DNA of 64,000 nucleotides from Halorhabdus utahensis DSM 12940 (GTDB lineage: Archaea > Halobacteriota > Halobacteria > Halobacteriales > Haloarculaceae). Location: NCBI RefSeq assembly GCF_000023945.1, contig NC_013158.1:1302001-1366000 (forward strand), in the 5' to 3' direction. Below are positions 24,191 through 30,145 of this stretch, piece after piece (position 1 is the first letter of the stretch; each line of letters opens with the position of its first letter). The notes beneath the pieces were generated by a model. That model made no database searches and was not told where the DNA came from. It worked only from the letters and a program-made list of their open reading frames with translations. The translations under genes were made by a program, and so were the position numbers.

Positions 24191-24262
24191 GCCTGGGTAG
24201 CTTAGCGGTAAAGCGCGTCCTTGGTAAGGACGAGACCCCGGATTCAAATTCCGGCCTAGGCT
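24191..24262 (+). tRNA. tRNA-Thr (anticodon GGT)
   Basis: Acceptor GCCTGGG pairs with CCTAGGC (one G-T). The D arm is GCTTAGCGGTAAAGC. Anticodon stem CGTCC/GGACG has loop TTGGTAA, giving anticodon GGT. T arm CCGGA/TCCGG has loop TTCAAAT; discriminator T. CCA is not encoded and there is no intron. The 3' quarter of this tRNA is repeated twice more downstream within a palindromic array. Confidence 0.95.
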
Positions 24263-24645
24263 TCTACCGACACAATTCTGCGAGGCGTTAGTCGCCGAGC
24301 GATTGCTGTGTCGGTGAAGCCGAAACCGGCATTTGAATCCCTGCCAGTGGCACGCCCGCACAGCGACCGAAGGGAGCGAGCAGGAACCCCTGGCTCCGGT
24401 TCAAATTCCGGCCTAGGCTTTTTCCGAGCGATTGACCCCGGAGCGTCAGCGATGGGGTCCTGAGCGAGTGAAATGCCAAAGCGGAATTTGAATCCCTGGA
24501 AGACGCAGCGGCCGACCATGGGGAGGGCGACCGTCTTCCTCCGGTTCAAATTCCGGCCTAGGCTTCTACCGACACAATTCTGCGAGGGGTTAGTCGCCGA
24601 GCGATTGCTGTGTCGGTGAAGCCGAAACCGGCATTTGAATCCCTG
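24238..24645. repeat. Palindromic array built from the tRNA-Thr 3' end
   Basis: The T arm plus acceptor 3' strand of tRNA-Thr (24238-24262) recurs at 24396-24419 and 24541-24564 with one substitution. Inverted copies of the T-loop region (atttgaatcc) occur near 24331, 24485 and 24633. An 83-bp block following the tRNA (24261-24343) is repeated at 24563-24645 with one mismatch. Each block folds on itself: ggcttctaccgacaca pairs with tgtgtcggtgaagcc. The middle unit has its own hairpins (gacccc/ggggtc; ggaagac/gtcttcc). No reading frame uses this region. It could be tandem integration scars, a mobile hairpin cassette or a structured RNA. Confidence 0.75.
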
Positions 24646-25411: not shown

Positions 25412-25870
25412 TCACTCCGCCGACGTGTCCACGGAGATCGGTTCACACGCTCGAACGGTATCCAACACTACATCGACGGTCACCGATCGCACGGCGGATT
25501 CCGTGAGCAGTTTGGCGACGTTCTCGTGCATGTCGTCGGTGTCGCGGAACCGACCGACGAGGACGACGTCATCCTCGCCGGTCACCTCGTACACCGAGCG
25601 GGCCCAGGGATATTCGCCAAGCGTCTCGATGACGAGTTCGGGGCCAGTACCCGTGCGGACCCGAACGACGGCCGTGACGTCGTAGCCGAGTGCGTCGTAA
25701 TCGACGCTCGCAGCGTATCCTTCGATGACGCCGGCGTCTTCCAGGGCCTCGATCCGCCGTTCGACGGCCGTTGGGGAGATCCCCACGCCGGCAGCGAGAG
25801 CCTGAGTGGACGCACGGCCGTCTTCGAGCAGGGCGGCGACCAGCGCGCGGTCGATATCATCGAGGTCCAT
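25412..25870 (-). CDS. Lrp/AsnC family regulator (copy 1)
   Basis: 152 residues starting MDLDDIDRALVAALLEDGRA. The N-terminal HTH (STQALAAGVGISPTAVERRI, EALEDAGVIEGY) is followed by a RAM/Lrp ligand-binding domain (YEVTGEDDVVLVGRFRDTDD). It is the last gene of an amt-glnK-lrp module, 18 bases downstream of glnK, and is a close paralog of the gene at 27891. It probably senses amino acids or glutamine and controls nitrogen genes; that role is inferred from context. Confidence 0.9.
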   Translation of the reverse strand: MDLDDIDRALVAALLEDGRASTQALAAGVGISPTAVERRIEALEDAGVIEGYAASVDYDALGYDVTAVVRVRTGTGPELVIETLGEYPWARSVYEVTGEDDVVLVGRFRDTDDMHENVAKLLTESAVRSVTVDVVLDTVRACEPISVDTSAE

Positions 25871-25888
25871 GTGGAGACCTGTGAGTGT

Positions 25889-26263
25889 TCAGACTGCCTC
25901 CGGACCGCTCTCGCCGGTGCGGACCTGGACGGCGTCATCGACCGGCAGGACGAAGATCTTTCCGTCGCCCTTCTCGCCCGTGTGAGCAGCCTCCCGGATC
26001 GCCTCGACGACGTCTTCGGCCGGAATATCAGCGACCACACACTCGATTTTGACCTTCTGGAGCAGGTCGACCACGTACTCCTCGCCGCGCCATTGGCCCT
26101 TCTTGGCGGCCTGGGAACCGCGACCCGACACCTGCGTCACCGTCAGCGAGGGCGCGCCGACCTCCGCGAGTGCTTGCTTGACCGCGCCTAGCCGATCCGG
26201 GCGGATCATCGCCATCACGAGTTTGATCTCGTCGTCGGCGTCCACAGTATCGTCGTCACTCAT
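25889..26263 (-). CDS. glnK: P-II nitrogen regulatory protein GlnK (copy 1)
   Basis: 124 residues. After a short acidic N-terminal extension the protein reads [20 protein letters not shown], with the T-loop [12 protein letters not shown] (Tyr63) and the B-loop [17 protein letters not shown] trimers bind ATP/ADP and 2-oxoglutarate and plug AmtB channels. The start MSDDDTVD overlaps the upstream amt gene by 8 bases; a longer frame starting 12 codons earlier is less likely. A 152-base stretch is identical to the second glnK at 28516-28667. Confidence 0.95.
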
Positions 26264-27593
26264 CGGAATCACCCCGCGAGCGGACCGCACTGACGCCACC
26301 GTCGGCGACGAGTGGGTCCTCGTCGCCGAACTCGGGGTAGGTCTCGACGCCGTGCTCGCTCAGGTCCAGCCCCTCACGCTCGTGCTCGGGTGTGACGCGG
26401 GCCTGGCCGATCGCCTTGAGGGCGCCCCAGACGACCCCCGTCGCGAGGATCGTCCACGCGGCGATGATGACGACGCCGAGGACCTGCGTGATGAATCCCT
26501 CGACCACGAAGCCCAGGTCGAGGCCGCCTTGCCAGGCTTCGACGGCGACGAACGGGAACGCGAGCGTCCCGAGCACGCCAGCGCTGCCGTGAACCGGGAA
26601 GACCGCACAGACGTCGTCGATCTTCAGGCGGTTCTCGACGAAGCCGAAGACGATCGGGAGCTGAGCGCCGGCGAGACCACCGACGATGAACGCGCCCCAC
26701 CAGGTCGTCGTGTCCGGGATCGCCGTGATCCCGACCAGGCCCGCCAGCAGGCCGTTGGCGACGTAGAGGGTGTCGACCTTGTCGGTCTTGAGCCAGGCGA
26801 CCAGGCCGGCACCCATCGCGCCGGCGGCCATCGCGATCGTCGTACCCATCGCGACGCGACTCAGCACGGCACCGTTGAACGCCAGCAGGTCGCCGTTCGG
26901 GCCGGCCTCGGCGAAGACGGCTGCGGTGCCGACGTTGAACCCGTACCAGCCGAAGGCGAGCATGAGCGTGCCCAGCACGGCGAACGTCATCGAGTGGCCG
27001 GGGATGACGTTCGGCGAACCGTCCTCGCCGAAGCGATCCATCCGCGGACCGAGGATGTAGGCGGCGGTCAGGCCGGCGATCCCGCCGAGTCCGTGCACGA
27101 TCATCCCGCCCGCGAAGTCGTGGAAGACGGCGTCGCCGACGGCGATGTACTCACCGACCCACGTGATCCCCGTGACGACGGGGTAGATCACGGCCGCCAG
27201 CAGGAACGTGTAGGTGACGTACGCCCGGAGTTTCGCCCGGCCGGCGACGGCCCCGGAGACGATCGTCGCGGCCGTCATCGCGAAGACGGCACCGTAGAGC
27301 CAGCCGATGTACTCCTCGTCGAGGAACGGGAACGCGTCGGTGTACGGATCGCCCCCGATGAGTCCGGAGATCCCGGCCCCGATCACGAAGAACACCGTCA
27401 CCCCGACGCTCCAGGTCAGCAGGTTCTTCGTCAACTGGTTGGCGACGTTCTTCGCTCTGACCTGCCCGGCCTCCAGCATCGCGAAGCCGGCGTGCATGAA
27501 GAAGATCAGGAACGTGACGGTGAGTACCCAGACGTTGCTGATCGCATCAGTCAGCGCGCTCGGCTCGACTTGCAACGGGAGCGCTTCGATCAT
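26256..27593 (-). CDS. amt: Ammonium transporter Amt (copy 1)
   Basis: 445 residues with 11 membrane spans. The twin-His pore residues appear in [16 protein letters not shown] and [18 protein letters not shown], and [11 protein letters not shown]-type signatures ([13 protein letters not shown]) are present. It imports ammonium. It is the first gene of an amt-glnK-lrp module and overlaps glnK by 8 bases. The cytoplasmic C-terminal tail ends [11 protein letters not shown]. It is clearly paralogous to the Amt at 28730, but more diverged than the two GlnKs are. Confidence 0.95.
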
Positions 27594-27692
27594 CGCTCAC
27601 ACCCGCCGGATATACCCAAACTTTTGTCCAACTTTCCACCGAATCCGACCGCGATTGTGATCTTATTCACGTTTGAAGCTGATTGGGATAGC

Positions 27693-27702
27693 CATATATA
27701 AG
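27693..27702 (-). promoter_or_regulatory. TATA-like element upstream of amt copy 1
   Basis: catatataag in an AT-rich 297-base spacer (27594-27890) that otherwise has no gene. On the minus strand it lies about 100 bases before the amt start, implying a leader of roughly 75 bases, unusually long for a haloarchaeon. The amt copy 2 gene has a similar arrangement. Confidence 0.45.
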
Positions 27703-27890
27703 AATTTGCTTCAGGATCGAAAATATACGAACTCCTGAATACACGTTTGTTCAAAATGCCATAGAATATTAGGAGTATAAGGTTATCGTCCGTAAATATT
27801 CATGCCAGGATGCGCTCGTAGAACTGGACGTTCGTATGGCCGATTTGGACGAAAAGTAGGGGTTCGTTGGGTGGACCGCGCGCGAGTCGG

Positions 27891-28349
27891 TCAGATCACG
27901 CCGTCCCCGATCCACAGGGGTTCACAGGCCCGGACGGCGTCGAGAACCACGTCGACGGTCACCGATCGCACAGCGGGTTCCGTGAGCAGTTCGGCGACGT
28001 TCTCGTGCATGTCGTCGGTGTCGCGGAACCGCCCGACCAGCAAGAAATCCGCCTCGCCGGTCACCTCGTACACCGAGCGGGCCCAGGCACACGTTGCCAG
28101 TGTCTCGGCGACGGCCGCGACCGATTCGCCAACCCGGAGACGCACGAGGGCGGTGACGTCGTAGCCGAGTTCGTCGTAATCGACGCTCGCAGCGTATCCC
28201 TCGATGACGCCGGCGTCTTCCAGGGCCTCGATCCGCCGTTCGACAGTCTCTGGGGCGACGTCGACAGCGGCGGCGAGGTCCTGAGTGGATGCCCGGCCGT
28301 CTTCGAGGAGGGCGTCGACCAGCGCACGGTCGATATCATCGAGGACCAT
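27891..28349 (-). CDS. Lrp/AsnC family regulator (copy 2)
   Basis: 152 residues starting MVLDDIDRALVDALLEDGRA. It is a paralog of the protein at 25412 with the same length and domain plan (HTH residues 1-55, RAM domain 65-150). The HTH recognition helix differs (AVDVAPETVERRI instead of GVGISPTAVERRI), which suggests different DNA specificity. The ligand-domain loop LRVGESVAAVAETLATCAW is also changed. It ends the second amt-glnK-lrp module. Confidence 0.9.
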   Translation of the reverse strand: MVLDDIDRALVDALLEDGRASTQDLAAAVDVAPETVERRIEALEDAGVIEGYAASVDYDELGYDVTALVRLRVGESVAAVAETLATCAWARSVYEVTGEADFLLVGRFRDTDDMHENVAELLTEPAVRSVTVDVVLDAVRACEPLWIGDGVI

Positions 28350-28367
28350 GTGAAAACCTGTGAGTGT

Positions 28368-28733
28368 TCAGACTGCCTCCGGACCGCTCTCGCCGGTGCG
28401 GACCTGGACGGCGTCCTCAACCGGCAGGACGAAGATCTTTCCGTCGCCCTTCTCGCCAGTGTGAGCAGCCTCCCGGATCGCCTCGACGACGTCTGCAACC
28501 GGGATTTCCGAGACAACACACTCGATTTTGACCTTCTGGAGCAGGTCGACCACGTACTCCTCGCCGCGCCATTGGCCCTTCTTGGCGGCCTGGGAACCGC
28601 GACCCGACACCTGCGTCACCGTCAGCGAGGGCGCGCCGACCTCCGCGAGTGCTTGCTTGACCGCGCCCAGCCGATCGGGCCGAATCATCGCCATCACGAG
28701 TTTGATCTCGCCGTCAGTTTCGGATTCACTCAT
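28368..28733 (-). CDS. glnK: P-II nitrogen regulatory protein GlnK (copy 2)
   Basis: 121 residues. Apart from the first 8 residues and a few others it is nearly identical to the copy at 25889. The T-loop Tyr is residue 60 in [12 protein letters not shown] and the ATP-binding [14 protein letters not shown] is present. Its start overlaps the amt copy 2 stop by 4 bases. The very high DNA identity to copy 1, beside clearly diverged amt neighbours, suggests recent gene conversion. Confidence 0.95.
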
Positions 28734-30145
28734 TCGTTGTCACCTCCGTTGAGCGAGCGACCGCCGTCGGTTCGGAGTTCACCGCCGTCGGGGGTGACCG
28801 TCGGGCCGGATGTGCCGGGCGTTCCCGGCTCGCCGCCGACGAATTCGGGGTAGACCGTGACGCCGTGTTCGCCCTCGTCGAGGCCGACTTCTTCCTCTTC
28901 GTCGGTGACCCGGAGGCCGAACAGCAGGTCGGCGATGCCGAAGGCGATCGCTGAACCGACGACCGCCCAGATCCCGATGACGATCACGCCGACGATCTGC
29001 ATCCCGAGCGCGTCGATGCCGCCGAACGCCCACGGGTCACCGAGAATCATCGTCCCGCCACTCTCGTAAGCGAACAGGGGGATCAGCGCGGTCCCGACCG
29101 CTCCCGCCATGCCGTGAACGGCAAAGACGCCACAGACATCGTCGATCTTCAGGGTATCGACCGTCCAGCGGAAGGTCGGCAGGACCAGGGCCCCGGCCAG
29201 CGAGCCGAGGATCAGTCCGCCCCACCAGGTGACGTGTGGAACGGCACCCGTCACGGCAACCAGCCCGGCGAGCAGACCGTTGGCAGTCCATAGCGGGTCA
29301 GGTTTGCCCTGCCAGGTGGTTGAAACCAGCATTGCCGCGAGGGCACCGCCAGCCATACCCAGGGTCGTGTTCAGCGCGACGCGGCCGAGTTGGGCGCCCA
29401 GGAACGCGTTCGCGCCGTCGTAGATCCCCGACGTCCCGACGTTGAACCCGTACCAGCCAAAGGCCAGGAACAGGGTCCCAAGTACTGCGAGCAGCATCGA
29501 GTGACCCGGGATCGGCCGTGAGTTGCCGTTCTCGTCGTACCGGCCTTTCCGCGGACCGACCATGTAGGCACCGACCAGCCCGGCGAGACCACCGAGCATG
29601 TGGACGACCGTCGCGCCAGCGAAGTCCTGGTAGCCGACACCGATGATATCCGCGATGAACCCGTTGTTGGCCGGGTTATCGGCCAGCGCGAGCAGGCCAC
29701 CGTCCCAGGTGATCCCCGTCGCGACGGGGTAGATGACCGCGGTCATCGCGGCCGCCACGAAGACGTATGCCTTGAAGTTCATCCGTTCGGCGACCGCCCC
29801 GGAAACGATCGTCGCCGCCGTCATCGCGAAGACGGCGCCCACGAGCCAGCCAACCCAACCGCTGGCCCCGCCGAAGTGACCGAACAGCGAGTCCATCGGG
29901 GTGATCGCCTGCCCACTGGTCAGCGTCGCGATGAGCACCGAGAACCCGAACCCGATGATGAAGTACGACAGGATGCCGAGCGTCCAGTCGGTCATGTTCT
30001 TCATCAGGACGTTCCCGACGTTTTTCGCCCGTACCTGTCCGGACTCCAGCAATGCGAAGCCCGGCTGCATGAAGAAGATCAGGAACGCCACGACGAGCGC
30101 CCAGACCGTATTGACGCCGCTGGCGACTTCCCCGCCGACCGGCAT
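28730..30145 (-). CDS. amt: Ammonium transporter Amt (copy 2)
   Basis: 471 residues with 11 membrane spans after a short periplasmic N terminus. The pore histidines lie in [18 protein letters not shown] and [18 protein letters not shown]. It differs from copy 1 by extra residues in the loops near residues 60-80 and 150-165 and by a longer C-terminal tail rich in Gly/Thr ([20 protein letters not shown]). It heads the second amt-glnK-lrp module. Confidence 0.95.

Follow-up and report, generated by a model that had tools for sequence, protein, structure and literature searches.

The DNA downstream of the tRNA-Thr(GGT) gene of Halorhabdus utahensis is a tandem array of palindromic, tRNA-derived units, and comparable arrays follow many other tRNA genes in nearly all genomes of its order. 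In what we regard as the best explanation, held at about even confidence, modular non-coding elements of ~100-160 bp stand here in tandem, recombine at tRNA T-loops and are mobilised in trans by a recombinase. The arrays would then be very small mobile DNA cassettes, apparently a family that has been overlooked, with tRNA genes as their landing sites. (Positions refer to the window, that is, the whole 64,000-nucleotide stretch of strain DSM 12940 that was analysed.)

A first-pass annotation had described a palindromic array made from the 3' end of the tRNA, and this array is real: the last 20 nt of the tRNA (T54 to the discriminator base, TTCAAATTCCGGCCTAGGCT) recur twice downstream with 20/20 identity, inverted T-loop copies occur at ~24322-24337, 24477-24492 and 24624-24639, and folding is far above that of shuffled sequence (z = -7.6 for array plus tRNA folded as RNA, and -4.8 to -6.2 for the array, whichever strand is folded and whether as RNA or as DNA). 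The three occurrences ascribed to T arm plus acceptor strand stand as to their number; the copied part falls short of the whole T arm and begins exactly at T54. The base preceding T54 is A in tRNA-Thr and G in both copies, and so the element itself supplies the 5' half of each copied T arm. A complete unit runs in the order HP (a hairpin module), iT (the inverted T-loop), core hairpin, exact 20-nt tRNA copy. Beside tRNA-Thr(GGT) there are two complete units and a truncated third, which ends after its inverted T-loop, with neither core nor T copy (Table 1). The 83-nt block at 24261-24343 does recur, as first reported: 24563-24645 departs from it at a single base (24286). The block is one hairpin plus inverted-T-loop module, and follows the first and third 20-mer copies. 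Elsewhere in the window (25412-30145, minus strand) lie two similar adjacent gene sets (Lrp-like regulator, GlnB/GlnK-like and ammonium-transporter-like).

Table 1. Features of the array beside tRNA-Thr(GGT), in window positions.
Feature	Positions	Strand	Basis or remark
tRNA-Thr(GGT) gene, intact	24191-24262	+	ARAGORN; Rfam RF00005, 66.8 bits
T54-to-discriminator 20-nt tRNA block, duplicated downstream	24243-24262	+	per-position identity, 27 copies in genome
Unit 1 HP module, hairpin CCGACACA...TGTGTCGG	24263-24329	+	missing in G006, where unit 2 abuts the tRNA
Unit 1 inverted T-loop CATTTGAA	24330-24337	+	complementarity reaching ~24322-24340
Unit 1 core hairpin, class I, TCCCTGCCAGTGGC...CCCCTGGCTCCGG	24338-24399	+	class-I signature, covarying stem
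Unit 1 exact T54-to-discriminator copy	24400-24419	+	preceded by G, against A in the tRNA
Unit 2 HP module	24420-24484	+	orthologous in G006 and G004, there directly after the tRNA
Unit 2 inverted T-loop AATTTGAA	24485-24492	+	sequence match
Unit 2 core hairpin TCCCTGGAAGACGC...CCGTCTTCCTCCGG	24493-24544	+	same core family in G006; other core on same HP in G004
Unit 2 exact T54-to-discriminator copy	24545-24564	+	sequence match
Unit 3, truncated: second unit-1 HP and inverted T-loop (24632-24639)	24565-24645	+	83-nt block, one mismatch

All 42 tRNAs of the genome (G000; 3,116,795 bp in one contig) were collected. The five other blastn matches of the array in this genome all sit just downstream of other tRNAs (Lys-TTT, Leu-TAA, Phe, Arg-CCG and Asn), which excludes a chance origin. 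At a cut-off of 15/20 or better, 15 of the 42 tRNAs are followed by copies of their own T54-to-discriminator block, as are 25/41 and 23/42 tRNAs in two sister species; tandem copies number up to four, at tRNA-Met. The upstream flanks of tRNAs, taken as control, hold no own-tail copies (best match never above 17/24). Identity between copy and own tRNA is 0.85-1.0 at positions 54-73, 0.1-0.3 at 44-49 and ~0.4 past 73, so that the duplicated piece is exactly the stretch from the first T-loop base to the end of the tRNA. The tails of G000 Ala-GGC (L012), Gly-TCC (L013) and Leu-TAA (L038) have a second hairpin type, seemingly inside their T-loop copies (TTC, then GCAAACG..CGTTTGC TC, then AATCC and the acceptor strand).

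The pattern GATTYGAA-N35..65-GTTCRAATC is present in 54/59 relatives, and the same pattern read backwards, as control, has no match in any of them. A phylum-wide draw places it in ~49/53 genomes of the order against ~12/240 outside (both by our own tally), where matches are mostly single and near chance; G028, G175 and G342 are examples of genomes in the order without a match. All 13 forward matches listed for G000 adjoin a tRNA. Among sampled loci of other genera, nearly all matches have a tRNA 19-200 nt upstream and end in the tail of that same tRNA; the exceptions include chance matches and one tRNA with an intron (L081). Plasmid examples come from Natronorubrum bangense (tRNA-Val) and Natrinema thermotolerans. 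The first-pass annotation would have fallen had the array been absent beside other tRNAs, with a simple flank in relatives; arrays at many tRNAs throughout the order clearly show otherwise, and local tandem duplication of a single locus is rejected on the same grounds. (An ortholog search of contigs for the locus itself yields only two distant loci, both without arrays.) A palindrome resembling a unit at L054:1501-1555 has no complete tRNA directly beside it, and is possibly the relic of a lost tRNA gene. Viral origin was considered and rejected: none of the 86 stretches from an IMG/VR scan has a haloarchaeal-type core, and phage records match the tRNA part or nothing. Four viral contigs (L257, L267, L274 and L290) carry a palindrome, GATTTGAACCGTGGACCTCTGG..CCAGAGGTCCACGGTTCAAATCC, that is almost perfect, has a variant form in L257 and encloses an unrelated core; this is perhaps another T-loop-associated attachment site. 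We found no account of such arrays in the open-access literature searched, a result that does not of itself prove novelty.

Comparison of all tRNA flanks of G000 with those of two sister species, G006 and G004, finds the tRNAs conserved and the units polymorphic. At Thr-GGT, G006 has unit 2 alone, directly at the tRNA, so that G000 exceeds it by precisely one inserted unit, unit 1. Eight clear gains (Arg-CCG, Gly-GCC, Thr-GGT, Ser-TGA, Glu-CTC, Ser-GGA, Val-CAC and Ile-GAT) are all tRNA-proximal, although some of these differences may be losses in a sister species rather than gains. Cores are swapped on an unchanged HP at Val-TAC and Thr-GGT; at Gln-CTG, the G000 unit unites the unit-1 HP and the unit-2 core of G006, the junction falling at the inverted T-loop. 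Two suggestions of the first-pass annotation survive in outline. Serial integration by a recombinase, itself putative, and a mobile hairpin cassette both agree with the precise gain of whole units at the tRNA end and with the likeness of the block from T-loop to tRNA 3' end to a tRNA attachment site.

The 105 distinct units collected include cores that are 88-98% identical at different tRNAs and followed by tails that stay tRNA-specific. The stretch of core identity is bounded by the inverted T-loop, GATTTGAA, and by the T-loop, TTCAAATC. Examples are G000 Gly-GCC and Ser-TGA of another genome, and G000 Ser-TGA and G006 Gly-TCC, whose inverted T-loops, GATTTGAA and GAATTGAA, each fit their own tRNA. 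Past the inverted T-loop, the next three bases likewise fit the local tRNA (2.96/6 matches vs 2.12 +- 0.09 shuffled). In a dense tRNA cluster on a megaplasmid of Haloarcula halophila (L300), a tRNA-Cys-like gene (L300:3926-4071) is interrupted by a class-I core, which parts G53 from T54 precisely; apart from it the T arm is well paired. This core shows an insertion point at the T-loop, without a regenerated tRNA end; the interrupted gene could be an intron-containing tRNA or a pseudogene. The cluster (L300:1858-4993, plasmid NZ_CP119561.1) packs more than 20 tRNA genes beside the gene of a TROVE-domain (Ro60-like) protein, and in several of its tRNA-like genes the anticodon loop or T loop carries an inserted hairpin.

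The main rival to mobile cassettes is ordinary recombination at repeats, with a functional RNA trailer next. The former dispenses with dedicated mobility: units would be created, lost and swapped by unequal recombination at the 20-bp T copies, by switches of template at inverted T-loops, and by conversion between similar hairpins in the polyploid haloarchaea. We consider this rather unlikely, while granting that ordinary recombination may need no more than a 20-bp repeat to delete or duplicate a unit, that module junctions coincide with the repeats, and that template switching would account for inverted T-loops fitting the local tRNA. HP modules are common mainly to tRNAs with similar 3' ends, and a single base in 83 separates the two copies of the unit-1 HP block in the window, both as this account would have it. 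It fits poorly with near-identical cores at unrelated tRNAs that have only ~8 nt of T-loop in common on each side, and with the plasmid core at G53/T54; nor are conserved mismatches and a fixed orientation expected from passive duplication.

Across 50 class-I cores, the named structure is paired in 95.5% of cells and shows 87 double changes, as against 84.2 +- 0.6 and 25, respectively, after shuffling. Pairing falls to 20-52% when the partner strand is slid, and all seven pairs of the inner core stem have compensatory changes. Recurrent features of the cores are an internal loop and a T.T mismatch. Orientation relative to the tRNA is fixed for cores (45:1), the HP motif (32:0) and a GNA-loop hairpin (35:0). 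G.T and A.C mismatches stand at 5:4 in HP and inner core stems vs 18:1 in tRNA stems of the same genomes (Fisher p = 0.026, from few mismatches and in sequences younger than the tRNAs); a separate count over whole-core stems gives 0 G.T and 14 A.C, the latter probably one recurring mismatch. The similar frequency of G.T and A.C in unit stems speaks, in small numbers, for a constraint on DNA hairpins rather than RNA. Inspected by eye, the hairpins offer no convincing bulge-helix-bulge or kink-turn.

The same data bear on a functional structured RNA, which we consider improbable. Here the units would be trailer hairpins of the tRNA transcript, in which iT perhaps acts as a switch that pairs with the T-loop of the tRNA or of the downstream copy, or which perhaps form protective 3' structures that tRNase Z removes. 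The units always lie downstream of the tRNA in sense orientation, their fold is conserved with compensatory changes and stable as RNA, and the inverted T-loop is complementary to tRNA-Thr itself; the fixed orientation would suit a role in the transcript, too. On the other hand, the covariation does not pass through G-U intermediates to the extent typical of structured RNA (G.T is no commoner than A.C), many tRNAs of each species have no units, and orthologous tRNAs differ in this respect between sister species. An Rfam search at gathering score finds no RNA family in the array, the tRNA being the sole match, and a known RNA family was rejected on that basis. An RNA cut by tRNase Z, as the first-pass annotation had proposed, is thus compatible with the orientation and weakened by the absence of a G-U preference and by fast gain and loss between close species.

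For mobile cassettes, part of the mechanism is visible in the arrays and part is proposed. With each gain the tRNA 3' end is regenerated, which leaves the tRNA intact and displaces older units downstream; cassettes would be kept on chromosomes only where that end is restored. HP and core modules are swapped at junctions in the T-loop and inverted T-loop, and core families are shared across tRNAs, while the 20-mer and inverted T-loop remain specific to the local tRNA. Mobilisation would be in trans; the putative recombinase would target tRNAs and belong most likely to the tyrosine family, whose members favour tRNA loops. The recombination substrate may be a folded single strand, because the hairpin of iT, core and T-loop is imperfect, covaries in Watson-Crick fashion, keeps a fixed orientation and has conserved mismatches; a hypothetical folded-strand recombinase would explain this mismatched yet conserved hairpin together with its orientation and strict Watson-Crick pairing, in a mode that might be likened to that of the integron attC site. 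All units are hairpin DNA of ~100-160 bp in which no gene is found, and they probably persist as selfish or neutral DNA. Neither circles nor excised intermediates were observed. More tentatively, and at clearly less than even confidence, the units may form an undescribed class of gene-less cassettes, whose folded strands move between T-loops and restore the tRNA, whose arrays grow tRNA-proximally (as those of integrons do at attI) and whose modules are exchanged across all tRNA species.

Plain attachment-site scars, left at the tRNA when an integrated provirus or plasmid was excised, are very improbable: integrase-like ORFs (as read from sequence) follow the same tRNA-Thr in relatives and the duplicated block resembles an att core, but a covarying core, core families that cross tRNAs and a constant unit size are not predicted, and simple provirus scars were rejected in view of the inverted T-loop and the conserved core. 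(The ORFs, which are tyrosine-recombinase-like and begin a few hundred bases past tRNA-Thr in L107, L109 and L118, all without arrays, suggest candidate proviruses at the site.) The tRNA attachment sites of tyrosine-recombinase elements have been reviewed for archaea (PMC8371274). The units resemble them in that a tRNA loop is targeted and the tRNA left intact, with its 3' part directly duplicated from the loop onward (identity block exactly T54-N73). They differ in being gene-less and 100-160 bp long, with a tRNA-specific inverted T-loop, a core hairpin and tandem stacking; between the duplicated ends there is hairpin DNA, and no integrase gene or remnant.

Integron cassette arrays consist of short tandem cassettes, new ones entering by a fixed site, and their imperfect attC hairpin has one recombinogenic strand. 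Tandem short cassettes, growth at a fixed site and an imperfect, mismatched hairpin are common to both systems, and a single recombinogenic strand may be; the unit hairpin is conserved and covaries, and its role as a recombination site is a prediction. In contrast to integron cassettes, the units have no ORFs and no demonstrated integron integrase, their site is the tRNA T-loop, and sites alternate in orientation. The pdif/Xer modules of plasmids are likewise freely shuffled between short recombination sites of alternating orientation, whereas the units are chromosomal, with tRNA-derived sites and non-coding hairpin modules. Archaeal tRNA introns are insertions at tRNA positions with a bulge-helix-bulge motif. 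The interrupted plasmid tRNA-Cys-like gene of L300 is comparable, though its fold is not recognised as bulge-helix-bulge, and the chromosomal units lie outside an intact tRNA. REP/BIME elements and the PATEs and SMRs of Haloquadratum share with the units the character of short, palindromic, non-coding intergenic repeats, but are not tied to tRNA ends and contain no copy of host gene sequence. PATEs/SMRs, which are also haloarchaeal, are defined as making no target duplication (PMC3119063), whereas each complete unit comes with a 20-nt duplication. That duplication, and the inverted T-loop and T-loop flanking each core, might recall MITE-type ends, but the inverted repeat is specific to the host tRNA and not to the element, and our searches brought up no autonomous copy.

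Were the RNA reading true instead, tens of tRNAs per cell would have a switch-like trailer of unknown role. If the arrays are mobile cassettes, much of the DNA that follows haloarchaeal tRNA genes would have been shaped by an unnoticed family of mobile elements, and T-loops would be general sites of exchange between tRNA loci. The annotation of archaeal tRNA 3' trailers, att-site predictions and 'tRNA remnants' would change, and the arrays would provide a natural system, independent of bacteria, for testing folded single-strand recombination.
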